DNA from: a virus
Length of the DNA: 53,913 nt
Strand: one strand, 5' to 3'
Virus record (IMG/VR): IMGVR_UViG_3300031857_000248
Span: 1 to 53,913 of that record
The translations under genes were made by a program, and so were the position numbers. The notes below the pieces were generated by a model. It was not told where the DNA came from and ran no database searches. It was given only the letters and a program-made list of their open reading frames with translations. Positions 24,923 through 53,907 of the stretch are shown here, in pieces (the stretch's first letter is position 1; each line of letters begins with the position of its first letter).

Positions 24923-25501
24923 ATGGCTTACTTAATGGACAGAATCAATCAGCAGTTGCAAAAGACTGGTTATACGGCTCGTAGTAGACAAGCCCGTGAT
25001 TGGTTGCGTTCCAAAGTTGGTGATTTAAAACCAACGCCTCAAAAATTAATGCAGGACCGTGAGAGACAGACAACCTCACATTTTATCGGTCACATGTACT
25101 ATTTTTATTATGATCCGAAAACGAAGGATAAGTTGCCATATTACGACAAGTTCCCATTGGTTCTACCAATACAACTATACCCAGACGGTTTTCTAGGGCT
25201 GAATTTACATTACATTCACCCAAAGCAACGTATCATTCTTTTGGATAAATTGAGCGAACATGCCACCGATAATCGCTTTGATGCACAAACCAAGCTAAGA
25301 TTAAATTATCAAATGCTGGCTGCATTCTCAAAAGCGTATGAGGCGACACCTTGCATTAAGCGATATCTAGGTTCTCATGTGCAATCTAGATTTGTTGAAA
25401 TTCCAGCTGATGAATGGGACATTGCCGCCTTATTACCGGTTGAACAATTTGAAAAGGCAACAAAGAACAAAGTCTGGGCCGATTCTAGGAAAAAATTCTA
25501 A
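24923..25501 (+). CDS. Conserved T4-like virion-assembly protein, possible gp2 counterpart (192 aa)
   Basis: Recognisable conserved segments are ARDWLRSKVGDLKPTPQKLM, SHFIGHMYYFYYDPKTKDKLPYYDKFPLVLPI (in part) and DGFLGLNLHYIHPKQRIILLDKL. Proteins with this pattern are widespread in T4-like phages beside gp4. In T4 the neighbour of gene 4 is gene 2, the DNA end protector, so a gp2-like role is possible, but I cannot confirm homology. The protein has no membrane segment or signal peptide. A late-type box only 5 bases before the ATG predicts a leaderless mRNA. The stop codon overlaps the start of gp54 by one base (TAATG). Confidence 0.6.
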   Translation: MAYLMDRINQQLQKTGYTARSRQARDWLRSKVGDLKPTPQKLMQDRERQTTSHFIGHMYYFYYDPKTKDKLPYYDKFPLVLPIQLYPDGFLGLNLHYIHPKQRIILLDKLSEHATDNRFDAQTKLRLNYQMLAAFSKAYEATPCIKRYLGSHVQSRFVEIPADEWDIAALLPVEQFEKATKNKVWADSRKKF

Positions 25502-26268
25502 TGTCATTTTTACCCCAATTATTTTTAGCCAACATAAAGGCTAAAGAAGGCTTAGCCCGTCCAAGTCGTTTCCAAGTTATATTACCAATACCACAATATA
25601 TTAGCAAGTTTGTTGAGAATGGTTTGCTTGAGCAAATTCTTAATTTACCAAATTCAGTTTTTTCGGATGTTACCGCAAGAGTGCTTGGCGGAGAACAAAC
25701 CCGTTCTTACAATTCATCTATTTCAAGATATCTAGCACTTCAATGCGAAGGTGCTGAATTGCCGGGCAAAACATTACAAACGGCTGATGTATCAATTTAT
25801 GGACCAGGATTCAAAGTGCCATATACAACCCAATATGATGAAATTGCACTAACCTGGGTTTGTACAAATGAGTTCTATGAAAGAAAATTGTTTGACCGTT
25901 GGATGGAAGCAATAGTTCCCAACGACACAAACAACGCTAGATTTCCTAAGGGCAAAGAAACATCATACATGACTAACGTTAAAATTGTTCAGTATGATGA
26001 TTTCATTAAACAGATTTATGCTGTAGAATTATTTGATGCTTTTCCTATTGGAATAGGAGCACAAACACTTTCTTGGTCGGATGATGGGTTTCATAGATTG
26101 ACTGTTAGATTTTCATATCAGAAATTCAAAACAATTTATGAAGGTGATTATGACCTCGGTGCGGCTGCGGCTGCACTTCTTGGTTCTTCCATTGCTGGAG
26201 TACCCGTTTCACAAATCCTACAATCGCAAATTAGAGGAACGGCTGAAGCTGTGAGAAGAATATTTTAA
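25501..26268 (+). CDS. gp54: Baseplate tail-tube initiator gp54-like (255 aa)
   Basis: The central sequence (ALQCEGAELPGKTLQTADVSIYGPGFKVPYTTQYDEIALTWVC, in part, then YERKLFDRWMEAIV) has the tail-tube fold pattern shared by T4 gp54 and gp19. Residues about 180-215 (LFDAFPIGIGAQTLSWSDDGFHRLTVRFSYQKF, in part) match the conserved end of that fold. A C-terminal Ala-rich extension (AAAAALLGSSIAGVPVSQIL) and position among baseplate hub genes favour gp54, the initiator of tube polymerisation, over the major tube gp19. The ATG overlaps the stop of the upstream gene. Confidence 0.78.
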   Translation: MSFLPQLFLANIKAKEGLARPSRFQVILPIPQYISKFVENGLLEQILNLPNSVFSDVTARVLGGEQTRSYNSSISRYLALQCEGAELPGKTLQTADVSIYGPGFKVPYTTQYDEIALTWVCTNEFYERKLFDRWMEAIVPNDTNNARFPKGKETSYMTNVKIVQYDDFIKQIYAVELFDAFPIGIGAQTLSWSDDGFHRLTVRFSYQKFKTIYEGDYDLGAAAAALLGSSIAGVPVSQILQSQIRGTAEAVRRIF

Positions 26269-26283
26269 TTATTTGGAGATTAT

Positions 26284-27021
26284 ATGTTACCTAAAATTGA
26301 TGTGCCTTTATATGAAATTACTTTACCATTACTAAAAAAGAAAGTAAAGTTTAGACCGTTCTTAGTTAAAGAAGAAAAGATTCTTTTGATGGCTGCGGAA
26401 TCAGAAGACCAAGATGCGATACTTTTGGCCGTGAAACAAATTATTAATAATTGTTGCGTTTCTGATATTGATATTGAAGAATTGCCTATTCTAGATTTTG
26501 AATATTTCTTTATGCACTTAAGAGCAAGATCCGTTGGTGAAGTTGTTGACTTGCAATACAAATGCAATAATACTATTAGTGGAGAAGGTGAAGAGGAAAA
26601 GAAATGCAACGCTTTAGTAAAATTGAGTTTTAATGCTCTGGAAGTTGAACCTGTAATTGGCGATATAAACAACAAAATTCAATTAACACCAAATTTAGGT
26701 GTTGCATTAAAATATCCTAACTTTAAGAACATTGAAGACATTAGTAAGATACAAGATTTATCATCAAGCGATTTAATTTCAAAAACGATTATCAGTTCTA
26801 TTGATTTCATTTATGATAACGAATCAATGTACTATGCTAAAGATACACCAGAAGAAGAATTGGTAGATTTTATTGATAGTTTGACCAGAGAACAATTTGG
26901 AAAAATTCAAGAATTCTTTGAGAGCATTCCCAAACTTAAAAAACAAATTAAGTTTACTTGTCAAAAGTGTGCTTATGAGGAAGAATTGATGCTTGAAGGA
27001 ATCCAAAGTTTTTTCGGATAA
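26284..27021 (+). CDS. gp26: Baseplate hub/tape-measure chaperone gp26 (T4 baseplate family, 245 aa)
   Basis: The sequence MLPKIDVPLYEITLPLLKKKVKFRPFLVKEEKILLMAAES, in part, and FEYFFMHLRARSVGEVVDLQYKC are diagnostic of the T4-type gp26 baseplate hub family (Pfam T4_baseplate). Two Cys pairs (YKCNN with KKCN near residues 98-110, and TCQKC near 225-228) suggest a zinc-binding site. A TTTGGAG ribosome binding site precedes the ATG. Its last codons contain a perfect slippery heptamer T-TTT-TTC (27009-27015), after which the -1 frame stays open to 27215. Together with its place just upstream of the tape measure gene, this implies a gpG/gpGT-like tail chaperone pair. Confidence 0.88.
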   Translation: MLPKIDVPLYEITLPLLKKKVKFRPFLVKEEKILLMAAESEDQDAILLAVKQIINNCCVSDIDIEELPILDFEYFFMHLRARSVGEVVDLQYKCNNTISGEGEEEKKCNALVKLSFNALEVEPVIGDINNKIQLTPNLGVALKYPNFKNIEDISKIQDLSSSDLISKTIISSIDFIYDNESMYYAKDTPEEELVDFIDSLTREQFGKIQEFFESIPKLKKQIKFTCQKCAYEEELMLEGIQSFFG

Positions 27022-27215
27022 CCTTTCGTTATGATATTTTAAGTAACCATTACCAAACTAATTTCGCACTAATGCAACATCACAAATATTCTTTACAAGA
27101 TTTAAATGAGATGATGCCGTGGGAAAGAAATGTATATGTTACTATGCTTCTCCGTCACATTGAGGAAGAAAACGAGAAGATTAAACAACAAAATTTAGCA
27201 AGAAGAAAAAAATAA
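26997..27215 (+). CDS. Probable -1 frameshift extension of gp26 (gpGT-like tail chaperone)
   Basis: The -1 frame is open from 26997 and has no usable start codon with a ribosome binding site before its conserved-looking start (RITFRYDILSNHYQTNFALMQHH, in part). Slippage at T-TTT-TTC (27009-27015) would fuse gp26 to about 66 residues ending in MMPWERNVYVTMLLRHIEEENEKI, then KQQNLARRKK. The first in-frame ATG at 27072 would cut the segment in half and lacks a ribosome binding site. A small hairpin (ATAAC-CTTTC-GTTAT) begins 2 bases after the slippery site. The stop TAA is directly followed by the ATG of the tape measure gene, the same arrangement as gpG-gpGT-tape measure in lambda. Frameshifting is inferred. 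Confidence 0.7.
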   Translation, partial: RNPKFFRITFRYDILSNHYQTNFALMQHHKYSLQDLNEMMPWERNVYVTMLLRHIEEENEKIKQQNLARRKK

Positions 27216-29231
27216 ATGGCAACTAAATTCTCACAAATATACAAACAAGAATTAAAATCAAAAGGTGTTTTGAGTTCTCTTGGTTCAGCGGCTTTGAAGC
27301 AAAGAAAAGAGAGAATGGATATTAGAAATGTTTTGTTTGGTGGAAGTGGAGTTGTGTCAGCTACTGGCCAAAAAATATTTGGCAAAGGCTTTTCTGCATT
27401 AGGTGGTGCACCAAAGTTAAGTTCAGATTCACCACAACAAAGTGCGGCTATAAATGCTTTAACTATTTCAAGCGAAAAACAAGAAGGCTTATTAAAAATT
27501 GTTGCTAAAAATACTATGAACATGAATTCTATGGCTAGAGATATGAATATCACTAGACAAAACATAGCGTCCATGACTAAAAAAGTAGCAGGTAAATCAT
27601 CAAGAGGTGCGGATGCACTTTGGATGGGTGCGGAAAAAAGAAATGCATTACTAGCTGACAAAAAAACAACACCGACAAACACTAATAATACCACAGAGAG
27701 TAGCGGCGGACTTGGTGGTATTTTTTCTGGAATAGGTAACATTCTTTCCGGTGGTGCTGGACTAATTGGAGGAGTTGTTTCGGGACTACTTGGCGTAGTT
27801 GGAAAAGTGGGTGGTGGAATATTAGGCGCCATCGGTTCCGTTTTAAGTGGAGTTCCCGGCGGATTTATTTTAGCGACTGTTGCGCTTGCTGGAGTTGCAT
27901 ATTTACTCAAACAAGTTTCTGAAAATGTAAATTTTGAAGAATTGAAAACTGATATTCTCAAAGGACTTGGTTTAGATCCTAATGATAAAGACAGGTCTTT
28001 ATCGGAACAAATATTAGAAAGAATTGGTTTTAGCCGAGAAACTTCTAAAAAAATTATCAACTCAACAAGCGATTTTACAAGAGAAATATCCAAAATATTT
28101 GAAGAGCCGGCTAGAATTATGACAATCTATGCCAAAGCCGCTTATTTAACATTAACTGATGTTTTTTTGGGAATAGGAAAACAATTTGGTTTCTTTTTGA
28201 ATGAATTTTTCCAAGACAATAAAGGAAAAATTCTTATGGCAGTCACCCTCGGTATAGGTTCAGGTTTTGTTAGAAATCCGGCATCATTAGCCGCTGTCGC
28301 AGCCGCGGTAGGTGCCGCTGGAATATTTGGTGCAACAACTTCGGCCGAAACAACGAATAGTTTAACTGAAGATTTAAATAAGAAAACTGAAAGTCTAAAG
28401 AATCAAGAAAAATTATTGAACGATATAACTAGAGCTGATCCTAATGATAGAAGAATAGCTGGAAGAAAACAATATATTGAACAACAAAGACAACTAGTTG
28501 ATGAAGCTAGAATAAAATTAGACGCTAAAAAAGCTGAACAAGATTCTTTAATGCCAAATATTAGAGATAGGATGAATAGAAATGTTACAGATTTGGAAGA
28601 ACAGTATCCCAAAACCAAATTTACTCCACAAAAAATAGATTCAAATTCACAAAAAGAAACAGCTAATCTAATTCTAAAAAGATTTATGGAAGCAGGTTTT
28701 ACTTATGAACAGGCTCTTGGCGCTATAGCAAATGCGTCAGCAGAATCATCTTTAAATCCAAAAGCAAGCAATGTTAATCCAGAAACAAAAGATGATAGTC
28801 ACGGATTATTTCAATTGAATAGACGAGGAGGATTAGGATCTGGGTATAGTGTGGAACAGTTGCATGATGCAGAAACTAACATAGCAATTGCAATACGAGA
28901 AGCTAAAAAATCTTCAAAGTTCAGAACATCAAAAACAGTTGAAGATGCCGCAAGAGCATTTATGGAAGATGTTGAAAGACCTAAAGACCAATCCAACAAA
29001 GAATTACAAAGAAGATTGAGTTTGCCAAATTTTACAGGTGAAAAAATTTCTAGTTCCAGCACAGAATTAAATGACGGTACTAGAACACTTAGTTTAGCTG
29101 GCGCAGGCTCAATTGCACCGACAGTTATTAATAACAACAATACGACAAACACATCATCCGGTGGTACCGCAGTAGCTTCATCATGGAATAAAGATGCGGC
29201 TGAATTGTTTGTCACAAACGCATACGCATGA
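27216..29231 (+). CDS. Tape measure protein with a lysozyme-like domain, gp29 counterpart (671 aa)
   Basis: Residues about 160-240 are a long Gly-rich hydrophobic stretch (GGIFSGIGNILSGGAGLIGG, GFILATVALAGVAYLL), and further hydrophobic and coiled-coil segments follow, as in tail tape measure proteins; T4 gp29 is 590 residues. From about residue 482 the sequence ILKRFMEAGFTYEQALGAIANASAESSLNP, in part, then HGLFQLNRRGG matches a phage-tail lysozyme-like fold with the candidate catalytic Glu in AESSLNP. The domain ends near residue 600 and a low-complexity tail follows. Because the gp5-like protein lacks lysozyme, this domain probably does the local peptidoglycan cutting during DNA injection. 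It lies directly after the gp26 frameshift pair. Confidence 0.8.
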   Translation: MATKFSQIYKQELKSKGVLSSLGSAALKQRKERMDIRNVLFGGSGVVSATGQKIFGKGFSALGGAPKLSSDSPQQSAAINALTISSEKQEGLLKIVAKNTMNMNSMARDMNITRQNIASMTKKVAGKSSRGADALWMGAEKRNALLADKKTTPTNTNNTTESSGGLGGIFSGIGNILSGGAGLIGGVVSGLLGVVGKVGGGILGAIGSVLSGVPGGFILATVALAGVAYLLKQVSENVNFEELKTDILKGLGLDPNDKDRSLSEQILERIGFSRETSKKIINSTSDFTREISKIFEEPARIMTIYAKAAYLTLTDVFLGIGKQFGFFLNEFFQDNKGKILMAVTLGIGSGFVRNPASLAAVAAAVGAAGIFGATTSAETTNSLTEDLNKKTESLKNQEKLLNDITRADPNDRRIAGRKQYIEQQRQLVDEARIKLDAKKAEQDSLMPNIRDRMNRNVTDLEEQYPKTKFTPQKIDSNSQKETANLILKRFMEAGFTYEQALGAIANASAESSLNPKASNVNPETKDDSHGLFQLNRRGGLGSGYSVEQLHDAETNIAIAIREAKKSSKFRTSKTVEDAARAFMEDVERPKDQSNKELQRRLSLPNFTGEKISSSSTELNDGTRTLSLAGAGSIAPTVINNNNTTNTSSGGTAVASSWNKDAAELFVTNAYA

Positions 29232-31321: not shown

Positions 31322-31543
31322 TCAAATAGGAAGTCTACGTGTTTTCGGTAACATATTGAGTTCTTGTGCATCAATTTCCACTTTTGATTTCAAGTCTTTG
31401 TTTACCAGACTGGATGCTAATTCAATCTCCATGCCAGTCTGATTACAATACTCAATGATTGCTTCCATATAGTTATAGTCGGTTCCAGCTACGAGTTTTT
31501 CAATCTCTTCCTGGAACTTAAACATTTCATCTTTTGTCGGCAT
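31322..31543 (-). CDS. gp33: Late promoter transcription accessory protein gp33 (73 aa)
   Basis: The small protein has the pattern of gp33 in T4-like phages: a central helix YNYMEAIIEYCNQTGMEIELAS, in part, SLVNKDLKSKVEIDAQELNML and the short basic/hydrophobic C-terminus KTRRLPI. gp33 bridges the host RNA polymerase flap, the sliding clamp and gp55, and is needed for activated late transcription. Its presence agrees with the NATAAATA late boxes in the window. The C-terminal hydrophobic residues are the expected clamp-binding motif. Its ATG overlaps the dsbA stop by one base. The gene order dsbA-gp33-gp59 matches T4. Confidence 0.88.
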   Translation of the reverse strand: MPTKDEMFKFQEEIEKLVAGTDYNYMEAIIEYCNQTGMEIELASSLVNKDLKSKVEIDAQELNMLPKTRRLPI

Positions 31544-31815
31544 TATTTTACAATCGTTTCATACAATTGTTCAAATTGTTCATGCACAGCAACTTCTTCA
31601 TCATAGTTTTGTTTGTGATAAACTTTAACTAGACGATTCACAATATTCTTGGGCAACTTCAAGTCATCACAAATTTCTTTGATTGCTTCCTTAATAAAGT
31701 CTTTTTCGCCTTCCATGCGAATCATAGAATTGGAACACTCTTTCATGGCATCAAGCAATTTCTTGCGGTCAGCCTCACTAGAGATTTGATTAATACTAAA
31801 TTGTTTTACAGCCAT
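31543..31815 (-). CDS. dsbA: Double-stranded DNA-binding protein DsbA (90 aa)
   Basis: The start at 31815 was chosen because AAGGAG lies 7 bases upstream; longer in-frame starts overlap the AAA+ gene and look non-coding. The C-terminal part (LKLPKNIVNRLVKVYHKQNYDEEV, in part, then FEQLYETIVK) matches T4 DsbA (GKMFNRLLALYHKDNRDV, in part, then VELYDAVFSK). In T4 DsbA binds double-stranded DNA near late promoters and can raise late transcription. It lies immediately upstream of gp33, as in T4. The N-terminal half is helical with Lys/Glu clusters. Confidence 0.85.
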   Translation of the reverse strand: MAVKQFSINQISSEADRKKLLDAMKECSNSMIRMEGEKDFIKEAIKEICDDLKLPKNIVNRLVKVYHKQNYDEEVAVHEQFEQLYETIVK

Positions 31816-31825
31816 AATATACTCC

Positions 31826-32986
31826 TTAAACGAAACCCATTTTGCTACCCACAGAGCGGGTATTCTTTTCTTCAATTTGTTTGTTAAACACTTCTGCGAT
31901 AGTCCAGCTATCACGCTTACCATCAAGTTTGACACCGATTTTCTTAGCCAATGCTTCGGCTTCTTTTTGTTTCAATGAATCAAAAGAAACGATATCAAAA
32001 CAACGACCTGGGCGAATCAACGCAGGATCAATGTCACGGATACTTGGCAAGTTAGTTGAGAAAATCAACTTCTTTCCTTTTGTGGTAACAAGACCATCGC
32101 CAACGTTTAGGAAACGATGCATCATGGTGTTACCATCGCTACGTGCTTTCAGGAAGTTATCAGAATCTTCAAGCACCATCACACCTGTTTCATCTTCAAT
32201 GAATCGTGCGAACAGATAATCTTTCTCCAGAATTGCGGCATCATATGTCACAATAGCAGAGGAGTTACTGTGTGCAAGAAGACCACGGATGAAAGTTGTC
32301 TTGCCAGTTCCTGGTGGTCCAATCAACAAGAGAATGTTTGCATTAGATTCCAGATAACGGTCATAGTATTCAGTCAATGGTTCTTTGAGGAACGGATACA
32401 TTTCATCAACAGGCAAACGCTCGGCATTCAAAGGAACATTCACGCTATCACCATTTGCACCGTACACCCACTCAATATATGAGGTAACTTCATCAAAATG
32501 TTTTAGAAAAATATCTTCAACATTTTCAATAAAGATTTTATCTCCATAGGTATGTGTTGAGACAGAATTGGAATTCACATCATAACGAATGAAATTCAAA
32601 CCTTCTGTAACAATAAGCCCAGAAGAATCTGTATATTGAATGATGTAGTCGCCATCAAATTCTTCATTGATAAAGTCTTGCCATTTTTTACGATTGCCGT
32701 GCATCTTCAAATCAGAATTGAAAGTGGACATTTTCTTTTCTGTCCGCGAATCAAGTAATTGCAAGTGCAACCAGTCAGCGTAATCTGATGCTCCGACAAA
32801 AAATTTATCGTTCGCACCGCTTTTCATTTCATTCATATTCATATCCATTGCGTCATAAGTCCAAGAGTTTAAACTACGTTTCTTTCTACCGCGTCTCCGC
32901 GAAACCCGGTGTCTTACGGGTGCACCTTCGCCAACACTAGATGAGAAAGCCTTCAATTCTCTAAAAATTCTATCTACTTCACTCAT
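31826..32986 (-). CDS. AAA+ ATPase, BCS1/CbbX-like (386 aa)
   Basis: The Walker A motif GPPGTGKTT is at residues 223-231, Walker B GVMVLEDSD at 268-276, sensor 1 at FSTNLPS (Asn312) and an Arg-finger-like RPGRCFD at 325-331. The order and spacing fit the AAA+ family of single-ring ATPases such as BCS1. The N-terminal 200 residues carry no recognised domain. Residues 27-37 (RVSRRRGRKKR) are strongly basic and could contact nucleic acid. Such genes occur in T4-like phages of aquatic bacteria without known role. It overlaps the upstream small membrane protein by 4 bases and is followed by dsbA. Confidence 0.8.
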   Translation of the reverse strand: MSEVDRIFRELKAFSSSVGEGAPVRHRVSRRRGRKKRSLNSWTYDAMDMNMNEMKSGANDKFFVGASDYADWLHLQLLDSRTEKKMSTFNSDLKMHGNRKKWQDFINEEFDGDYIIQYTDSSGLIVTEGLNFIRYDVNSNSVSTHTYGDKIFIENVEDIFLKHFDEVTSYIEWVYGANGDSVNVPLNAERLPVDEMYPFLKEPLTEYYDRYLESNANILLLIGPPGTGKTTFIRGLLAHSNSSAIVTYDAAILEKDYLFARFIEDETGVMVLEDSDNFLKARSDGNTMMHRFLNVGDGLVTTKGKKLIFSTNLPSIRDIDPALIRPGRCFDIVSFDSLKQKEAEALAKKIGVKLDGKRDSWTIAEVFNKQIEEKNTRSVGSKMGFV

Positions 32987-34156: not shown

Positions 34157-34693
34157 TTAGAATCCTACAGAAACTGTAAGTCCGACCGCACGGTCTTGAA
34201 TATCTTGATAGCTTTGGCTAACACCAACACCAACAGATACTTTGCTGATAACTGGCATGTCATAGCTAACAAAGGCTACAGATTGTTTTGGATTTGCGCT
34301 GTTCCAATTTACTCGGGTCTTGGCACCAACCATGGCATAACCAGGACCAACTTTAGCGCCAGCGTTTGCGCCGACTAGACCATACTCATATGGCTTATCA
34401 CCGTTGCCACCATTATCAAAACCAACGCCAACGAATGGGTTGATACCGAAAACTGTCTTACCTGCGGTAAGTTCCAAACTATTAAACATAGATTGATTGT
34501 CATTAGTACGTGCATTACGATTTTGTAATCCAAGATTGAAACCACCCAATGAGGTACCAGCACGAACATATTGTGCGATACTTTGTTGGTTGCTTACTCG
34601 GTCAGTAACTTGGTCAACACCATACGAAACAAAACCACCGGCTTGAGCGGCAGTTGCGATTGCAAATAAACTTGCGATTGCGATTTTCTTCAA
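34157..34693 (-). CDS. Outer-membrane-type beta-barrel protein with signal peptide (178 aa)
   Basis: The start is a TTG at 34693 preceded by a strong AAGGAG at 7-base spacing. Residues 1-18 (MKKIAIASLFAIATAAQA) are a classic Sec signal peptide with an AQA cleavage site. The mature protein alternates hydrophobic residues in short strands (FVSYGVDQV, GGFNLGLQNRNA, LVGANAGAKVGPGYAMVGAKTRVNW, in part, VSVGVGVSQSY, VGLTVSVGF) and ends in Phe, the Bam recognition signal of outer-membrane proteins. Size fits an eight-stranded barrel. A phage could use it to alter the host surface, for example against superinfection; that is inference. It lies just downstream of the tmRNA coding half, with no other promoter visible between them. 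Confidence 0.75.
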   Translation of the reverse strand: MKKIAIASLFAIATAAQAGGFVSYGVDQVTDRVSNQQSIAQYVRAGTSLGGFNLGLQNRNARTNDNQSMFNSLELTAGKTVFGINPFVGVGFDNGGNGDKPYEYGLVGANAGAKVGPGYAMVGAKTRVNWNSANPKQSVAFVSYDMPVISKVSVGVGVSQSYQDIQDRAVGLTVSVGF

Positions 34694-34717
34694 AATAAAA
34701 CTCCTTGTTAATAAATT

Positions 34718-34748
34718 GGTAGGTTATTCTGTTACGAGGAAACCTACC
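34718..34748 (-). other. 3'-terminal hairpin of the tmRNA coding half
   Basis: GGTAGGTT and AACCTACC form an 8-base-pair stem around a 15-base loop, just after the tag stop and a smaller GCGGC-CTAAAC-GCCGC stem. It probably forms part of a pseudoknot or the 3' end of the coding piece, with the ribosome binding site of the next gene only about 12 bases further on. Confidence 0.6.
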
Positions 34749-34765
34749 GAAACCCTAAGCGGCGT

Positions 34766-34798
34766 TTAGGCCGCTAAAGCAAAACTTTCGTCATTTGC
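34766..34798 (-). other. tmRNA proteolysis-tag reading frame ANDESFALAA
   Basis: The codons GCA AAT GAC GAA AGT TTT GCT TTA GCG GCC TAA encode ANDESFALAA and a stop. The tag keeps the AND start and ALAA end seen in beta- and gammaproteobacterial tmRNAs (E. coli ANDENYALAA), which is recognised by ClpXP and ClpAP. The stop codon lies within the hairpin that follows the tag. Confidence 0.93.
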
Positions 34799-34886
34799 AT
34801 TTACGTTTTTTGCTTGATTTACGGTCATCGCCTACCGTGCTGTCCACGCATGTACTTGTTGCCCTGTCGAATCTAGGTCACCCCCA

Positions 34887-35045
34887 TCATAAAGATTTTA
34901 TCTCAGTAATGATATCATAAACTTTTGAATAAGCATCGGAAATCTTTTCTAAATTTTCTTCAGTCAATGTTATTCCCTCACGGGCTTCACACTTAACTAA
35001 ATCTTTAGCTAAGTTTTCCTGCAATTCTTTAAGTTTATTATCCAC
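34887..35045 (-). CDS. 52-residue protein encoded between the two tmRNA halves
   Basis: A GTG start at 35045 with an AAGGA ribosome binding site at 5-base spacing opens a frame of 52 codons ending in TGA at 34887, one base before the mature 5' end of the tmRNA coding half. The product (starting VDNKLKELQENLAKDLVKCE and ending YSKVYDIITEIKSL) is Lys/Glu/Leu-rich and predicted helical. The frame fills nearly the whole spacer that would be removed from the tmRNA precursor. I do not recognise the protein. It may be a real gene inserted in the tmRNA locus or a spacer that acquired coding capacity; codon use looks like that of neighbouring genes. Confidence 0.7.
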   Translation of the reverse strand: MDNKLKELQENLAKDLVKCEAREGITLTEENLEKISDAYSKVYDIITEIKSL

Positions 35046-35127
35046 TTAAATCCTTATGGTGGAGGTGGGGGGATTCGCACCCCCGTCCAGGACACTTTTC
35101 TCTTTGCTTCATACAGCAATAACACTA

Positions 35128-35156
35128 ATTATAACACAACAAAACTAGGTTGTCAG
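35128..35156 (-). promoter_or_regulatory. Sigma70-type promoter of the tmRNA locus
   Basis: On the minus strand CTGACA (-35) and TATAAT (-10) are separated by 17 bases. This nearly perfect host-type promoter overlaps the 3' end of the nuclease gene and should start transcription near 35121, at the 5' end of the tmRNA acceptor half. Confidence 0.75.
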
Positions 35157-48455: not shown

Positions 48456-49184
48456 ATGACACACACGCAAAAGTTTTTTACTTTTTTGTTTATCACCATA
48501 ATCACAATTAACACTTGGGCTAGTGGAATTACTGCACAGAGTTGGTTGGTAGCAAATGAAGAAGGTAAAATACTCTCTGGTGAAAATACCAAAGAGATTC
48601 GTTCAATAGCAAGCATCACAAAACTTATGACTGCAATGGTCATACTAGATGCTAAACAAAACATGAATGAATTAAAACCATACACAAGAAAAGAACTGAT
48701 TCAAATTGCGTTAATAAAATCAGACAATCAAGCGACTAAAGAATTATGCCATTATTATCCTGGTGGTACGCACCCGTGCGTGTATGCGATGAATCAAAAA
48801 GCAAAGTCATTAGGACTCACTCAAACTAAATTTATTGAACCGACTGGACTAAGCGTATTCAATGTAAGCACAGCCGAAGAATTAATTGTTCTCATAAACG
48901 AAGCTAAGAAATATCCGGAGATTGTGGAGGCTAGTGGTCTTAGTGAGGTGAAGATAAAAGTAAAGAAGAAGTGGTTGGTGTTTCACAATACCAATCCAAT
49001 CATCGGTAGAGAACACAATACGATTGTGAGTAAAACAGGATACATCAGAGCATCAGGCGGATGCATTGTGATGTTGATGAATACTAATATTGGAAAAAGA
49101 ATTGTTATTGTTCTTGGAAGTAAGAACACAAAAACAAGAATACCTGAGGCTCAGTTTCTTGTTAAAAGATATGGCCCGGCGTGA
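48456..49184 (+). CDS. S11-family D-alanyl-D-alanine peptidase, PBP7-like (242 aa)
   Basis: The three active-site motifs of S11 penicillin-binding peptidases are present: SITK at residues 53-56, SDN at 89-91 and KTG at 193-195 (VSKTGYIRASGGC). A signal peptide is visible at residues 5-24 (QKFFTFLFITIITINTWASG). Such enzymes remove terminal D-Ala from peptidoglycan stem peptides or cleave cross-links in the periplasm. Length fits the short PBP7/PbpG-like group rather than the longer DacA type. Its last 13 bases overlap the tRNA-Arg gene on the opposite strand. A role in remodelling the host wall, blocking superinfection or aiding lysis is inference. Confidence 0.85.
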   Translation: MTHTQKFFTFLFITIITINTWASGITAQSWLVANEEGKILSGENTKEIRSIASITKLMTAMVILDAKQNMNELKPYTRKELIQIALIKSDNQATKELCHYYPGGTHPCVYAMNQKAKSLGLTQTKFIEPTGLSVFNVSTAEELIVLINEAKKYPEIVEASGLSEVKIKVKKKWLVFHNTNPIIGREHNTIVSKTGYIRASGGCIVMLMNTNIGKRIVIVLGSKNTKTRIPEAQFLVKRYGPA

Positions 49185-49246
49185 GGGAATCGAACCCCCA
49201 TTCGCACTTTAGAAGAATGCTGTCCTGTCCATTGAACGAACGCCAG
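49172..49246 (-). tRNA. tRNA-Arg (anticodon TCT)
   Basis: Acceptor CTGGCGT/ACGCCGG with discriminator G and encoded CCA; anticodon loop CTTCTAA; T-loop TTCGATT. The 3' end overlaps the end of the S11 peptidase gene on the plus strand by 13 bases. Confidence 0.92.
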
Positions 49247-49267
49247 ATAAATTTGTAGAGTTTATAT

Positions 49268-49344
49268 TGGTACGGATGGTGGGACTTGAACCCACAGAAC
49301 TCAGATTTTAAGTCTGATATGTATACCTATTCCATCACATCCGC
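49268..49344 (-). tRNA. tRNA-Leu (anticodon TAA), short variable arm
   Basis: Anticodon stem TCAGA/TCTGA with loop CTTAAAA; acceptor GCGGATG/CATCCGT; CCA encoded. The variable region is only GTTCT (5 bases), unlike the long arm expected for tRNA-Leu. Confidence 0.9.
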
Positions 49345-49349
49345 ATGTT

Positions 49350-49425
49350 TGGTGCCTCTTTCTGGTTTCGAACCAGACTCCCTGGATTTTCAGTCCAGTG
49401 CTTTCACCAGATTAGCTTAAGAGGC
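49350..49425 (-). tRNA. tRNA-Phe (anticodon GAA)
   Basis: Acceptor GCCTCTT/AAGAGGC perfect; anticodon stem CTGGA/TCCAG with loop CTGAAAA; T-loop TTCGAAA; CCA encoded. Confidence 0.93.
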
Positions 49426-49429
49426 TTAT

Positions 49430-49503
49430 TGGTGCTCCCACCAAGAATTGAACTTGGGTTTCATCCTTACCAAGGATGTGTAATGCCATTATACTATGAG
49501 AGC
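49430..49503 (-). tRNA. tRNA-Thr (anticodon GGT)
   Basis: Acceptor GCTCTCA/TGGGAGC; anticodon stem CATCC/GGATG with loop TTGGTAA; CCA encoded. An inverted-repeat element begins 7 bases upstream of its 5' end. Confidence 0.92.
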
Positions 49504-49509
49504 ATAATA

Positions 49510-49639
49510 ATTCATATTGAAACACACTCTCAACGTCAGAGGTTTTTTCATCGTGCTGATTAAGCTACTTCGTTGTGTAGGTCAAGATTATCAATCCTGT
49601 ATTCCTAACAACCAATGATGAATGTGTTTCAATATGAAT
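49510..49639 (-). repeat. Inverted-repeat structured element A in the tRNA array
   Basis: Two 20-base arms (49510-49529 and 49620-49639) are complementary except for one position, which is a G-U pair in the minus-strand transcript. Arm core: GAAACACA. About 90 bases lie between, with smaller stems (GTTGT/ACAAC, GATT-GAT-AATC). The arms share GAAACACACT with elements B and C. It lies between tRNA-Leu(CAA) and tRNA-Thr(GGT). Confidence 0.85.
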
Positions 49640-49640
49640 A

Positions 49641-49717
49641 TGGTACCCAAGGTGGGATTTGAACCCACAAAATTCTCCTTTTGAGAGAGACACGTTTGCC
49701 AATTTCGTCACTTGGGC
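49641..49717 (-). tRNA. tRNA-Leu (anticodon CAA), short variable arm
   Basis: Acceptor GCCCAAG/CTTGGGT; anticodon stem TCTCT/GGAGA with loop CTCAAAA; CCA encoded. The variable region is ATTTT, again only 5 bases. Confidence 0.9.
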
Positions 49718-49723
49718 ATAATT

Positions 49724-49798
49724 TGGTACCTTGTGACGGGATCGAACCGCCGACCTTCTCCTTGTAAGGGAGACACTCTACCGCTGAGTTAACAAGGC
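49724..49798 (-). tRNA. tRNA-Val (anticodon TAC)
   Basis: Acceptor GCCTTGT/ACAAGGT; anticodon stem TCTCC/GGAGA with loop CTTACAA; T-loop TTCGATC; CCA encoded. Confidence 0.93.
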
Positions 49799-49804
49799 AT
49801 ATAC

Positions 49805-49879
49805 TGGGTGGATGTACGGGAATCGAACCCGTGATAGCGGAATCACAACCCGCGGTTTTACCACTAAACTAACAACCAC
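49805..49879 (-). tRNA. tRNA-His (anticodon GTG)
   Basis: The extra 5' G (G-1) pairs with C73, the tRNA-His identity feature; anticodon loop TTGTGAT; acceptor GTGGTTGT/ACATCCAC has one U-U mismatch; CCA encoded. Confidence 0.9.
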
Positions 49880-49887
49880 ATAAAATC

Positions 49888-49962
49888 TGGAGCGGGTAGT
49901 GGGAATCGAACCCACAACTAAACCTTGGCAAGGTCTTGTGTTACCACTAGCACCATACCCGC
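49888..49962 (-). tRNA. tRNA-Gly (anticodon GCC)
   Basis: Acceptor GCGGGTA/TACCCGC; anticodon loop TTGCCAA; discriminator T; CCA encoded. The left arm of element B starts at its 5' end. Confidence 0.92.
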
Positions 49963-50038
49963 ATATAGAAACACACTTGATATAGGAGATTACTCTCTCA
50001 CGGATGAACCCGAATTTAATCAAATATGTTTTTATATG
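49962..50038 (-). repeat. Inverted-repeat structured element B in the tRNA array
   Basis: Arms 49962-49981 and 50019-50038 are nearly complementary over 20 bases, with two G-U pairs and one mismatch in the minus-strand transcript. Arm core: ATAGAAACACACTT. The interior can form CGG-GTTCAT-CCG and GAGA/TCTC stems. It bridges exactly between the 5' end of tRNA-Gly(GCC) and the CCA of tRNA-Gly(TCC). Confidence 0.8.
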
Positions 50039-50110
50039 GAGCGGGATGCGAGAATCGAACTCGCAACTTCAACTTGGAAGGATGACGTTTTACCACTAAA
50101 CTAATCCCGC
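50037..50110 (-). tRNA. tRNA-Gly (anticodon TCC)
   Basis: Acceptor GCGGGAT/ATCCCGC; anticodon loop CTTCCAA; discriminator T; CCA encoded. The sigma70-type promoter at 50123-50151 stands immediately upstream. Confidence 0.91.
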
Positions 50111-50122
50111 ATATTGATATGT

Positions 50123-50151
50123 ATTATAGCGCAAACCACAATACATGTCAA
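50123..50151 (-). promoter_or_regulatory. Consensus sigma70 promoter for the left tRNA sub-array
   Basis: TTGACA and TATAAT are spaced by 17 bases on the minus strand, 13 bases before the 5' end of tRNA-Gly(TCC). It should drive the nine tRNAs from 50110 down to 49172. Confidence 0.85.
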
Positions 50152-50158
50152 TAGTTTT

Positions 50159-50647
50159 TTACATTCCTACCATTTCTTGTTCCGCAAGGATACGTTTCAA
50201 ACGATCCGCACAGAATGAAGCCGCAGGTGCATCTGGTTTTACCATTGGTGTCATGTTACATGTACCTTTGATATAACCGATAGCTTGTTGCACAACACAA
50301 GAACTTCCGTGTTCATCTGATTTGTTTAAGTCTAAATGAACTTCAACATGAAAATCTTCTAACACATCAGCCAATGTTTGGAACAATTCTGAAACCTTGT
50401 ATACTTCTGTCATCAGCCGCATAGCAGGTTTATTTTTCTTATGGTCATAATCCATTTCTCTATCAACATAGCCAAATATTTTACAACCGTGGCGACCATC
50501 AATATGAACTACAACTGCCAATGCATAGTCAGCATACCATACACCGCCCACTCTAACACGTTCGGAGTCAGCACCAAGATACACTTTGGTATCTTTTCCT
50601 TGTTTTGCAAGGAATGATTTGACTTCTTCTACATTGAAATGTTTCAT
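50159..50647 (-). CDS. RNase H-like DUF458/YkuK-family protein (162 aa)
   Basis: The start at 50647 is supported by AAAGGTGAT upstream; the longer in-frame extension crosses the tRNA-Trp gene. KVYLGADSERVRVGGVWYADYALAVVVHI, in part, with the acidic Asp-Ser-Glu of an RNase H-like first strand, then VEVHLDLNKSDEHGSS fit the YkuK/DUF458 ribonuclease H-like family. Its reaction is not established. The gene lies within the tRNA array between tRNA-Trp and the promoter for the left sub-array, so an RNA-processing role is tempting but not shown. Confidence 0.75.
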   Translation of the reverse strand: MKHFNVEEVKSFLAKQGKDTKVYLGADSERVRVGGVWYADYALAVVVHIDGRHGCKIFGYVDREMDYDHKKNKPAMRLMTEVYKVSELFQTLADVLEDFHVEVHLDLNKSDEHGSSCVVQQAIGYIKGTCNMTPMVKPDAPAASFCADRLKRILAEQEMVGM

Positions 50648-50668
50648 ATCAATCACCTTTATAAAAAT

Positions 50669-50742
50669 TGGTATCCCGTGAGAGAATCGAACTCCCGCCA
50701 AGAGATTTGGAGTTTCTTGTGCTACCATTACACCAACGAGAT
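50669..50742 (-). tRNA. tRNA-Trp (anticodon CCA)
   Basis: Acceptor ATCTCGT/ACGGGAT; anticodon loop CTCCAAA; T-loop TTCGATT; CCA encoded. The 3' end is 21 bases from the start of the RNase H-like gene. Confidence 0.9.
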
Positions 50743-50744
50743 TC

Positions 50745-50818
50745 TGGTACCCTGTAGAGGTAACGATCCTCTGTCTCCCGGTTATCAGCCGGGTGCTCTA
50801 CCTTTGAGCTAACGGGGT
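50745..50818 (-). tRNA. tRNA-Ile (anticodon GAT), unusual T-loop
   Basis: Anticodon stem CCCGG/CCGGG with loop CTGATAA; acceptor ACCCCGT/ACAGGGT with one mismatch; T-stem AGAGG/CCTCT with loop ATCGTTA instead of TTCRANN; CCA encoded. Confidence 0.9.
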
Positions 50819-50823
50819 ATATA

Positions 50824-50898
50824 TGGAGGGCCCTGAGAGAATCAAACTCCCACTTGCAGGTTCGTAGCCTACCGTAATATTCATTTTACTAAGGGCCC
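50824..50898 (-). tRNA. tRNA-Arg (anticodon ACG)
   Basis: Acceptor GGGCCCT/AGGGCCC perfect; anticodon stem GTAGG/CCTGC with loop CTACGAA; T-loop TTTGATT; CCA encoded. A34 would need deamination to inosine to read all CGN codons it serves. Confidence 0.92.
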
Positions 50899-51007
50899 AA
50901 AAAATATGCTATGTTCTCTTGCGGAGAACTCTAGTTGCGGTCTGAGAAGCATGTTTACTAGTATACAGAGGCTATCCCGCCACAGCATTAAGCGATGCTG
51001 TGCATTT
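50899..51007 (-). ncRNA. Structured spacer E between tRNA-Met and tRNA-Arg(ACG)
   Basis: The 109-base spacer has two strong hairpins on the minus strand: CACAGCAT-CGCTTA-ATGCTGTG (8 pairs) near its 5' end and GTTCTC-CGCAA-GAGAAC (6 pairs) near its 3' end. It holds no reading frame with a start and no tRNA cloverleaf. It may be a processed small RNA or a tRNA-precursor spacer. Confidence 0.55.
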
Positions 51008-51082
51008 TGGTGGTGATAGAAGGTAACGATCCTTCCTTTGAGCCTTATGAGAGCCCCGCATATCCGTCTATGCTATATCACC
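51008..51082 (-). tRNA. tRNA-Met (anticodon CAT), elongator type, unusual T-loop
   Basis: Acceptor GGTGATA/TATCACC perfect; anticodon loop CTCATAA; T-stem GAAGG/CCTTC with loop ATCGTTA; CCA encoded. It lacks the initiator features and the tRNA-Ile2-like arm seen at 53249-53323. Confidence 0.85.
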
Positions 51083-51087
51083 AAAAC

Positions 51088-51161
51088 TGGTCTCCGATGC
51101 AAGAATCGAACTTGCGCCACATGCTCCCAAAGCACGGATGATACCATTTCACCAATCGGAG
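51088..51161 (-). tRNA. tRNA-Pro (anticodon TGG)
   Basis: Acceptor CTCCGAT/ATCGGAG; anticodon stem CGTGC/GCATG with loop TTTGGGA; T-loop TTCGATT; CCA encoded. Confidence 0.92.
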
Positions 51162-51167
51162 TTAACT

Positions 51168-51241
51168 TGGTGCCCCATGACAGAATCGAACTGCCATCCC
51201 CTGATTACAAAACAGGTGTTCTACCATTTAACTAATAGGGC
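51168..51241 (-). tRNA. tRNA-Thr (anticodon TGT)
   Basis: Acceptor GCCCTAT/ATGGGGC; anticodon loop TTTGTAA; T-loop TTCGATT; CCA encoded. The 5' end overlaps the last 14 bases of the oxygenase gene on the same strand. Confidence 0.91.
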
Positions 51242-51890
51242 TATACTCTTTCAATACCAAACCACTTGGGTCTGGATAATTATACCTATCAAAGTGGTCT
51301 TTGTTTGTCATACCGATTGGCATGATATTAGCACCAATAATGATTCTATATTTACACTCAGTTGGAGCCGTGAAGTGTGTTGCCCAAGCAGGAAACATAA
51401 CTAGTGTTCCTGGTATGAAAGGCATCATCACCGCTGGCTTCAACATCAATTCTTTTTCGCCAGATATTGCTGGCTGAATAACATATTTTTCTGTTCCTAA
51501 ATTTGAGAATACCGTACCACTTGCATTGCCATCAACGTCAAACAAATGAAACGCACAACCCAAAAAACTATTCGCATGACTGTGTGAATGATGGTGACCA
51601 AATGCTCTCTGTCTTGTTGACCACATACTGGTAATGCCACATTCTTTTTTATATCCCATTTCACTCATAGTAAACTCTGCACATGATTGTATAAAGTCTG
51701 CTATCTTTTTTGCTTTAGGTTCTTTATGCATGTTTGCTCTAGTTATTTGTAATCCATTCTTTTCACGGTCAGAAATATAAATTTCATCTTGTGCGAAATG
51801 TCTTACCAATTCTTCTTCATCTTTATCCCAATCTGGATATTGATATCGCCAAACTGGAGTATAAAATAACTTATGTAACTCAACTTGCAT
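51228..51890 (-). CDS. 2OG-Fe(II) oxygenase family protein (220 aa)
   Basis: The segment GHHHSHSHANSFLGCAFHLF, near residues 99-118, and GTLVMFPAWATHFTAPTECKYRIII, in part, near 161-185 match the phage-abundant 2OG-Fe(II) oxygenase family with iron ligands among His103/His105 and His172 and a 2-oxoglutarate-binding Arg182. Such enzymes hydroxylate proteins or nucleic acids; the substrate here is unknown, though DNA or tRNA modification is possible given its place inside the tRNA array. The gene overlaps tRNA-Thr(TGT) by 14 bases. AAAGGT is the ribosome binding site. Confidence 0.8.
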   Translation of the reverse strand: MQVELHKLFYTPVWRYQYPDWDKDEEELVRHFAQDEIYISDREKNGLQITRANMHKEPKAKKIADFIQSCAEFTMSEMGYKKECGITSMWSTRQRAFGHHHSHSHANSFLGCAFHLFDVDGNASGTVFSNLGTEKYVIQPAISGEKELMLKPAVMMPFIPGTLVMFPAWATHFTAPTECKYRIIIGANIMPIGMTNKDHFDRYNYPDPSGLVLKEYSPIS

Positions 51891-51904
51891 AATATACCTT
51901 TAAA

Positions 51905-51979
51905 TGGTGGACCGACGGGGAATCGAACCCCGACCCGAGGCTTGCAAAGCCACTGTGCTCCCGTTATCACTATCAGCCC
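51905..51979 (-). tRNA. tRNA-Ala (anticodon TGC)
   Basis: Acceptor GGGCTGA/TCGGTCC contains the G3-U70 alanine identity pair; anticodon loop TTTGCAA; T-loop TTCGATT; CCA encoded. Confidence 0.93.
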
Positions 51980-52043
51980 GAAATTTGTGATAGACTACTT
52001 ATCCTACTGTACGCCGTCATATCAGAGCGAGAATAAAAAAACT

Positions 52044-52120
52044 TGGTGCCCTAGGAGAGACTCGAACTCTCAGAACCTGGTTTCTAAGACCAGTACGTAT
52101 ACCAATTCCGTCACCAGGGC
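52044..52120 (-). tRNA. tRNA-Leu (anticodon TAG), short variable arm
   Basis: Acceptor GCCCTGG/CTAGGGC; anticodon stem CTGGT/ACCAG with loop CTTAGAA; variable region GTTCT of only 5 bases; CCA encoded. Confidence 0.9.
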
Positions 52121-52134
52121 AATTCTTTTGTTTT

Positions 52135-52213
52135 TGGCTCCGCACTAGAGAATCGAACTCTACTAACCAGTGATTAACAGTCACGCCCATGCACCTTGCT
52201 CGGGTTTTGCGGA
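52135..52213 (-). tRNA. tRNA-Asn (anticodon GTT)
   Basis: Anticodon loop CTGTTAA; acceptor TCCGCAA/GTGCGGA with one mismatch at position 7; T-stem TAGAG/CTCTA; CCA encoded. The first 40 bases lie inside the 3' end of the HNH endonuclease gene on the same strand. Confidence 0.88.
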
Positions 52214-52737
52214 ATAATTCTTTTATCTTGCCAACGAATGGCAAGATTTTTATCATAATTTTGTGTTCTATTTTTCTTTCTATTTTCCATCGCAGGAAGA
52301 TATTGTAAATTATCTTGATGATGCAAACCGCCTTCAACCAAAGGTATCATGTGGTCAACTTCATATCCATCAGGACACATTTTATAAATTTCTTTTATCA
52401 ATTCTAAATCAGAATCTTCTGTTATAGCTTTCTTTTTTGTTGCTCTATACTTTGAAACTTGTATTCTATTTTTAATTGCATAATGTTGTTTAGATTTTCT
52501 ACCAATTTTATCCCAAGCATCTAATGATTTTTGTCTTTTCAATTCTTTCATTTCATCAGAATGTTTCCAGCCAGGTTTTCCTTTCGATGGATGAACATTA
52601 TCTTTTAGAAATATTTTTGTCGCTTCCGATTTTTTCTTCTTATCTTCATCAGACCAGGATCTGGAGTTAGCACAACTTCTGGAACAAAATGTTCCATTCT
52701 TTTTATGCTCAACATTACATTTTGGACATACTTTCAT
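52174..52737 (-). CDS. HNH endonuclease, homing type, overlapping tRNA-Asn (187 aa)
   Basis: Cys4, Cys7, Cys18 and Cys22 form an N-terminal zinc knuckle (CPKCNVEHKKNGTFCSRSC). Residues about 43-80 have the Lys/Trp repeats of a NUMOD3-like DNA-binding part. The HNH motif is DGYEVDHMIPLVEGGLHHQDNLQ, in part, with Asp128, His129, His140 and Asn143, then MENRKKNR. Freestanding HNH genes of this type are usually selfish homing endonucleases in T4-like phages. The last 13 codons lie within tRNA-Asn, so the gene ends by borrowing tRNA sequence, as expected of an insertion at a conserved tRNA target. Confidence 0.85.
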   Translation of the reverse strand: MKVCPKCNVEHKKNGTFCSRSCANSRSWSDEDKKKKSEATKIFLKDNVHPSKGKPGWKHSDEMKELKRQKSLDAWDKIGRKSKQHYAIKNRIQVSKYRATKKKAITEDSDLELIKEIYKMCPDGYEVDHMIPLVEGGLHHQDNLQYLPAMENRKKNRTQNYDKNLAIRWQDKRIIPQNPSKVHGRDC

Positions 52738-52745
52738 AGCTGTGG

Positions 52746-52753
52746 AATAAATA
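52746..52753 (+). promoter_or_regulatory. Late-type promoter box AATAAATA directly upstream of a plus-strand small gene
   Basis: The plus strand reads AATAAATA, then CTAAA, then ATG at 52759. The 5-base spacing equals that at 24910-24917 and at gp8. Confidence 0.5.
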
Positions 52754-52758
52754 CTAAA

Positions 52759-52932
52759 ATGAATGATTCTAAAAACAACTACAGATATCTATACAATCTT
52801 CCTGAAGATATCACAAGTCTACCATTGTACTGGACAACGGAAAGAGAATTCATTCTGAATAAAACGCTATCAGAACAAAAAAAAGATTTTGTTCTAACAG
52901 AACTAAAAAAACTTGGCGGTCCCAAGGGGTAA
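52759..52932 (+). CDS. Small plus-strand protein inside the tRNA array (57 aa)
   Basis: The start at 52759 follows a late-type box by 5 bases without a ribosome binding site. The product (MNDSKNNYRYLYNLPEDITSLPLYWTTEREFILNK, in part, then TLSEQKKDFVLTELKKLGG) is charged and helical with no known family. Its last 19 bases are antisense to the 3' end of tRNA-Asp. It is the only plus-strand gene in the array, which suggests independent late expression. Its reality rests mainly on the promoter box and lack of other coding in the interval. Confidence 0.5.
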   Translation: MNDSKNNYRYLYNLPEDITSLPLYWTTEREFILNKTLSEQKKDFVLTELKKLGGPKG

Positions 52933-52988
52933 CGATCCCCTTCTTTAGCAGTGACAGTGCTACGTGCGTCCATGAACACTTTGAGACC
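52914..52988 (-). tRNA. tRNA-Asp (anticodon GTC), unusual T-loop
   Basis: Acceptor GGTCTCA/TGGGACC; anticodon stem TAGCA/TGCTA with loop CTGTCAC; T-stem AGGGG/CCCCT with loop ATCGTTA; discriminator G; CCA encoded. Confidence 0.9.
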
Positions 52989-52994
52989 TAAATT

Positions 52995-53087
52995 TGGTGG
53001 AGCAACTTGGAGTCGAACCAAGATTGTTTACCCGGAGGGGACGGATTTACAGTCCGCCGATGCACACGCCATAGCATCAATTGCTCC
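52995..53087 (-). tRNA. tRNA-Tyr (anticodon GTA)
   Basis: Acceptor GGAGCAA/TTGCTCC perfect; anticodon stem GCGGA/TCCGT with loop CTGTAAA; long class II variable arm; T-loop TTCGACT; CCA encoded. Confidence 0.93.
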
Positions 53088-53167
53088 ATATAGAAACACA
53101 CTTCGGATACTGTACTAAACAGAAACTATCCATCACAGTCGAAACTATTGAAATGTGTTTTTATATG
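53087..53167 (-). repeat. Inverted-repeat structured element C in the tRNA array
   Basis: Arms 53087-53104 and 53150-53167 pair over 18 bases with one G-U pair and one mismatch. Arm core ATAGAAACACACTT is the same as in element B. The interior forms GGATA/TATCC with an inner CTGT/ACAG stem. It joins the 5' end of tRNA-Tyr to the CCA of tRNA-Lys. Confidence 0.82.
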
Positions 53168-53240
53168 GTAGAGGCACAGAGAATCGAACTCTGATTTACT
53201 GGTTAAAAGCCAGCTACTTTCGCCGTTAAGTTATACCTCC
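53166..53240 (-). tRNA. tRNA-Lys (anticodon TTT)
   Basis: Acceptor GGAGGTA/TGCCTCT; anticodon loop CTTTTAA; T-loop TTCGATT; CCA encoded. Its CCA is partly within the right arm of element C. Confidence 0.92.
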
Positions 53241-53248
53241 ATAAAACT

Positions 53249-53323
53249 TGGTGCCTTGAGAGAGAATTGAACTCCCACTCAAGCGATTATGAGTCGCCTG
53301 CTTTACCATTAAGCTACCAAGGC
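53249..53323 (-). tRNA. tRNA with anticodon CAT, probably Ile2 (lysidine type)
   Basis: Acceptor GCCTTGG/TCAAGGC; anticodon arm AGCAGGCGACTCATAATCGC is the same as the corresponding stretch of E. coli tRNA-Ile2, which is read as isoleucine after lysidine modification by TilS. It could be Met if unmodified; CCA encoded. Confidence 0.85.
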
Positions 53324-53327
53324 ATTA

Positions 53328-53454
53328 TACCATTTGTTTTGCTGACGCACTATTTGCTATGCTCAACGGAATTATTTGCAATTTTACCGTTTCTATACAT
53401 AGTTACTCAAGGTTGACGTTTACCTCATGGCTTACATCAGCAAAACAAATGGTA
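53328..53454 (-). repeat. Perfect inverted-repeat structured element D in the tRNA array
   Basis: Arms 53328-53345 and 53437-53454 are perfectly complementary over 18 bases (core CATTTGTTTTGCTGA). The 91-base interior can form a nested stem CTATG/CATAG enclosing AACGG/CCGTT. The right arm includes the CCA of tRNA-Glu. Its arm sequence differs from A-C. Confidence 0.85.
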
Positions 53455-53524
53455 CACCTAAGGAGAATCGAACTCCTCTTTCCGCCTTGAAAGGGCAGCG
53501 TCCTAACCGATAGACGATAGGTGC
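53450..53524 (-). tRNA. tRNA-Glu (anticodon TTC)
   Basis: Acceptor GCACCTA/TAGGTGT; anticodon stem CTGCC/GGCGG with loop CTTTCAA; T-loop TTCGATT; CCA encoded. Confidence 0.92.
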
Positions 53525-53579
53525 AAATAAACTCTACAAATTTTTAAAGAACTTAGTTGATTTCTCAACTCATGGATGT

Positions 53580-53607
53580 AGTATAACACAACCACATCTT
53601 TTGTCAA
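53580..53607 (-). promoter_or_regulatory. Sigma70-type promoter in the right tRNA sub-array
   Basis: TTGACA and TATACT are spaced by 16 bases on the minus strand, between tRNA-Cys and tRNA-Glu. It should drive tRNA-Glu and the tRNAs to its left. Confidence 0.78.
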
Positions 53608-53639
53608 CAACTTTTTTAGTGTCGTTGTTTTTTCACAAC

Positions 53640-53715
53640 TGGAGTGAGTGACAGGATTTGAACCTGCATAAAACAGATTTGCAATCTGCTCCCTAGCCTT
53701 TCGGGTCACACTCAC
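53640..53715 (-). tRNA. tRNA-Cys (anticodon GCA)
   Basis: Acceptor GTGAGTG/CACTCAC; anticodon stem GCAGA/TCTGT with loop TTGCAAA; T-loop TTCAAAT; discriminator T; CCA encoded. Confidence 0.92.
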
Positions 53716-53721
53716 ATTTTT

Positions 53722-53811
53722 TGGTGGAGAGCCAGGGAGTCGAACCCTGTGGCCGTATTTCTACAACCTGCGGTTTAGCAAACCGGTGCATTACCATCCT
53801 GCCCGCTCTCC
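53722..53811 (-). tRNA. tRNA-Ser (anticodon GCT)
   Basis: Acceptor GGAGAGC/GCTCTCC; anticodon loop TTGCTAA; long variable arm; T-loop TTCGACT; CCA encoded. Confidence 0.92.
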
Positions 53812-53817
53812 GAATTT

Positions 53818-53907
53818 TGGTGGAAGCGGTGAGATTTGAACTCACGGACCCTTTCGGATCGTCTGTTTTCAAGACAGGTGCAATAAACCGGACTCTGCCA
53901 CACTTCC
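53818..53907 (-). tRNA. tRNA-Ser (anticodon TGA)
   Basis: Acceptor GGAAGTG/CGCTTCC; anticodon loop CTTGAAA; long variable arm (GATCC/GGGTC stem); T-loop TTCAAAT; CCA encoded. It is the last feature before the window edge. Confidence 0.92.

Follow-up and report, generated by a model that had tools for sequence, protein, structure and literature searches.

Vladimirov, Gautam and Davidson reportedly identified the tail chaperone genes of T4-like phages in 2022. Atkins et al. 2016 (PMC5009743) call frameshifting of the lambda type in tail genes widely conserved 'except T4'. For cyanophages and vibriophages, the passages on gp51 in Sullivan et al. 2010 (PMC3037559) describe a protein without its first approximately 200 residues, annotated as a separate gene in cyanophages and KVP40 and called 'reduced'; these passages make no mention of frameshifting. 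According to the relevant passages of two later papers, both citing Vladimirov et al., some T4-like phages have one short gene plus a long, fused one in place of frameshifting (PMC10885494), and poly-T slip sites are found in T4-like chaperone genes (PMC12846349). Going by such passages, T4-like tail chaperone frameshifting appears to have been reported already. An earlier note on the DNA analysed here remarked that T4-like gp26 is not generally described as having this arrangement, a remark that looks outdated, as later papers attribute the finding to the 2022 work. Among open papers, we found no description of an SD-like element or a clade-restricted hairpin in T4-like chaperones.

Here we describe a 53,913-nt stretch of viral DNA (IMG/VR record IMGVR_UViG_3300031857_000248; hereafter the window) carrying T4-like tail genes, in which a programmed −1 frameshift very probably yields a gp26–gp51 fusion alongside gp26, a pair resembling gpG/gpGT of phage lambda.

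Reading frames of the gp26/gp51 locus

The gp26 gene (26284–27021, + strand), whose 245-aa 0-frame product would be the short tail assembly chaperone (TAC-N), sits between a tail tube-like gene on its 5′ side (25501–26268, +; phrog_45, E = 1.3e-35) and a tape measure-like gene that carries a tail lysozyme domain (27216–29231, +; Phage_lysozyme2, E = 1.1e-13; phrog_9570, E = 1.4e-8), as do chaperone pairs of the lambda type. In the 0 frame its 3′ end reads AGT TTT TTC GGA TAA, with the heptamer T TTT TTC (27009–27015, +) in register and the stop codon TAA (27019–27021, +) 3 nt past it. The −1 frame is free of stops from 26997 to the TAA at 27213–27215; its extension (27012–27212, +) runs for 66 codons past the A-site Phe, and the ATG of the tape measure gene (27216) lies directly 3′ of its stop. 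The earlier note had read both the heptamer at the end of gp26 and the length of the open −1 frame correctly. The predicted fused product would comprise 244 + 66 = 310 aa.

The arrangement goes beyond what chance would give. In the AT-rich window, TTTTTTC in any register is not uncommon (24 occurrences against 37.7 expected), but the in-register T TTT TTC occurs once among the 14,553 codons of 41 window genes. Elsewhere in the window, an ATPase-like gene (31826–32986, −) has GGGTTTC in register, four codons from its 3′ end, and overlaps a GTG-started frame (31543–31935).

Identity of the two parts

The gp26 product matches the Pfam family T4_baseplate (PF12322, E = 3.6e-56) and phrog_150 (E = 6.7e-62). 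The 67-residue translation of the −1 frame matches phrog_634, 'baseplate hub assembly catalyst', that is, gp51 (E = 4.4e-25), which gives a name (gp51, TAC-C) to an extension that the earlier note had rightly taken to be real but had left unnamed. The gp51 profile aligns to residues 200–244 of T4 gp51, beginning with the Phe of the slip site as its own first residue; the same profile gave no alignment to T4 gp26. Because T4 gp51 consists of a PF12322 domain (residues 1–201) followed by the gp51 tail, and T4 gp26 of the domain without that tail, a −1 shift would rebuild the two T4 proteins from one locus. A single continuous gp51 gene of about 249 aa, the T4 form, is absent from the window, which has the two frames instead, and full-length gp51 is attainable there only via a −1 shift. 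Substitutions in the −1 frame among close relatives number 2407, 1289 and 5298 at codon positions 1, 2 and 3, respectively, and the frame evolves as coding DNA. The gp51 part is predicted to be helical (model mean pLDDT 82).

The AlphaFold model of gp26 has a mean pLDDT of 93.5, and its three best structural matches (3fgx, Z = 7.8; 3klu, Z = 7.4; 2ob9, Z = 7.1) cover the first 85–94 or so residues, the next unrelated fold scoring Z = 2.6. As 2ob9 is the HK97 tail assembly chaperone, matched over gp26 residues 1–84, the model resembles that chaperone, a supportive likeness with Z below 8 and within the first third of gp26. Sequence searches found no solved structure for either gp26 or the gp51 part.

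Conservation of the junction in relatives

Loci were collected by scans of viral contigs and of annotated phages, and were counted when both parts were present as separate frames. The earlier note had proposed looking for the heptamer and the −1 frame in relatives, and both are kept there: gp51 lies in the −1 frame relative to gp26 in 401 of 401 two-frame loci, and T TTT TTN is in register at 279 of 281 distinct junctions or, after clustering at 85% identity, in 209 of 210 clusters. Of the two exceptional junctions, one is a locus (L394) where gp26 has lost its end and with it the heptamer; the other is that of Serratia phage 3M, which reads G GTT TTC. One inserted or deleted base would join the two frames, as would suit a sequencing or assembly error in a gene that is truly a single fused frame; against it, the same −1 relation recurs across 401 loci, drawn from many samples, and is seen in isolate genomes too. 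The relatives refute this explanation, and we give it practically no weight.

The frameshift reading is further supported by the codons at the junction. The codon 5′ of the first slip-site Phe encodes Ser, Asn, Asp, Ala or Gly, but T is always its third base, and TTT is the only codon used for the first Phe (209 of 210 clusters for each); from codon usage, the expectation would be 10^-48 for the former and 10^-28 for the latter if clusters were independent, an independence that both figures overstate, as the clusters are related. For the second Phe, 163 clusters use TTC and 38 use TTT, although TTC is the minority Phe codon in gp26; synonymous constraint in gp26, its 5′ end excepted, is highest at the slip codons. 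The 0-frame stop lies no more than 27 nt from the heptamer at all 279 distinct junctions, and 3 nt from it at 241 of them; its being kept so close suggests that the short and the long product are both wanted.

A run of six to eight T residues, present in all junctions, is also what would be expected if RNA polymerase rather than the ribosome slipped, so that a fraction of the mRNAs encoded the fusion. In 225 of 279 cases, however, the run is only six long, which is short for transcriptional slippage; moreover, codon register and the preference for TTC are kept at the slip site, and the SD-like element and the hairpin described below would act on ribosomes. Slippage by the polymerase is therefore most improbable.

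Loci of cyanophages and KVP40 (Kyanoviridae, Schizotequatrovirus) share the junction, the T TTT TTN heptamer and the −1 relation with the window. Among the loci scored with both profiles, the only fused one is gp51 of Thanatos-1, a full-length gene of the T4 type. In Ackermannviridae (loci L408, L409, L410 and L168), gp26 is followed by a gp51-like tail that is kept in the −1 frame and has no annotation in Mooltan, May and 3M; the slip sites are degenerate (A ATT TTC, G ATT TTC, CTT TTT C and G GTT TTC). Such a tail can thus persist without a perfect heptamer, which counts against the frameshift reading. A tree of gp26 and its T4 paralogues gave no order for the frameshift and two-gene arrangements.

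Start sites in the −1 frame

Public records of S-RSM4, P-SSM2 and KVP40 annotate gp51 as a gene of its own, and some start codon is found by −1 codon 10 in 123 of 202 clusters, as would suit an ordinary separate gene started within the −1 frame by re-initiation or from a weak start. None of the 202 clusters, however, has a −1 frame start with a good SD (−5 or better) by that codon, as the earlier note had anticipated from the window; by comparison, 62% of gp26 starts have a good SD. In the −1 frame of the window, no ATG, GTG or TTG precedes position 27072; the ATG there (27072–27074, +) has no SD (duplex energy +1.9), and a start at this codon would drop the first 20 residues of gp51, some of them conserved. 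The SD energy of the window gp26 start is −6.4. In addition, the annotated gp51 starts fall on different internal codons from phage to phage, and a separate gene does not predict a fixed heptamer. We regard a separately started gp51 as very improbable.

Sequence elements around the slip site

The canonical bacterial −1 signal of the dnaX type has three parts: an X XXY YYZ heptamer, present here as T TTT TTC; an upstream internal SD, which is present across the relatives and moderate in the window; and a stable structure on the 3′ side, which the window lacks and relatives of the P-SSM2 type have. In relatives, an SD-like stretch, GGAGGG in many of them, is found 7–9 nt 5′ of the heptamer. Its mean anti-SD energy over 202 clusters is −6.95, against −5.12 for a synonymous null, and the value elsewhere in gp26 is −1.65. 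As judged from these comparisons of sequence, the element is under synonymous selection, and it is a putative stimulator of the shift. In the window, the corresponding candidate is GAAGGAA (26995–27001, +), 7 nt 5′ of the heptamer, with a moderate anti-SD energy of −5.7, weaker than in many relatives.

On the 3′ side, phages of the P-SSM2 type have a strong hairpin 5 nt from the slip site; across 57 clusters it is 90% paired, and one position shows compensating changes (T-A/A-T/G-C). Hairpins are also found there in S-PM2, S-RSM4 and Cr30. In contrast, a stable hairpin 3′ of the slip site is absent from the window (z about 0) and from its close relatives. Lacking the hairpin and having the weaker SD-like element, the window locus may shift with low efficiency.

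The phage encodes a tRNA-Phe(GAA) (49350–49425), which is the tRNA that would slip. The tRNA array of the window (49172–53907, −), to which this gene belongs, comprises 25 genes and covers most amino acids. The window also contains a permuted tmRNA of betaproteobacterial type (34675–35149, −) with the tag ANDESFALAA, to which no similar DNA was found in the phage collection; a paper on the methylophage Melnitz (PMC9004378) is said to mention a tmRNA.

The start of the tape measure gene abuts or overlaps the −1 stop, the commonest overlap in relatives being 8 nt, and the SD of this next gene is usually weak (strong in 15%). The chaperone frameshift of T4-like phages might be tuned by an internal SD, as in dnaX, and by a clade-specific hairpin that is absent here, and translation of the tape measure gene might be coupled to the shifted ribosomes, in which case the long chaperone and the tape measure would be made in step. 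As lambda H has AGGAGGAG upstream and other window genes also have weak SDs, coupling remains a guess, and we consider this extended scheme possible but doubtful.

Discussion

The best explanation, well supported by the sequences compared here, is the one that the earlier note had put forward, a tail chaperone arrangement of the gpG/gpGT kind just before the tape measure gene. We propose that gp26 and the −1 frame that follows it are a single locus for a tail assembly chaperone. The majority of ribosomes would terminate at 27019 and yield gp26 as the short chaperone (TAC-N); the remaining minority would pause at U UUU UUC, probably aided by pairing of the anti-SD to the upstream GAAGGAA, and tRNA-Phe would re-pair one base back, giving the gp26–gp51 fusion (TAC-NC, 310 aa). 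If the pair acts as gpG/gpGT of lambda does, the tape measure protein would be coated by many short copies and few long ones, with tail tube subunits being recruited by the gp51 portion.

If so, the 'truncation' of gp51 in cyanophages and marine vibriophages would be explained, the missing approximately 200 residues being supplied by gp26 through the −1 shift, and many public genomes of T4-like phages would carry a wrong annotation of gp51.

The locus can be set beside further known systems. In E. coli dnaX, as here, an internal SD lies 5′ of the slip site, with a 3′ hairpin found only in some relatives of the window; dnaX slips on Lys codons and the shift shortens its protein, whereas the window locus would slip on Phe codons and the shift would lengthen the product. 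Lambda gpG/gpGT likewise has a short and a −1-extended form just 5′ of the tape measure gene, and its short gene likewise ends with the slip site. In the lambda sequence this site is G GGA AAG instead of T TTT TTC and, unlike lambda, the window locus has an N domain of the T4_baseplate (PF12322) family, an SD-like putative stimulator and gp51 as its extension. T4 gp26 and gp51, the baseplate hub assembly chaperones, show the same two architectures, the domain by itself and the domain followed by the tail, but are separate genes on opposite strands, without frameshifting between them. The window, with its one locus, and T4 thus offer a natural comparison between a chaperone pair probably made by frameshifting and one made from two genes.
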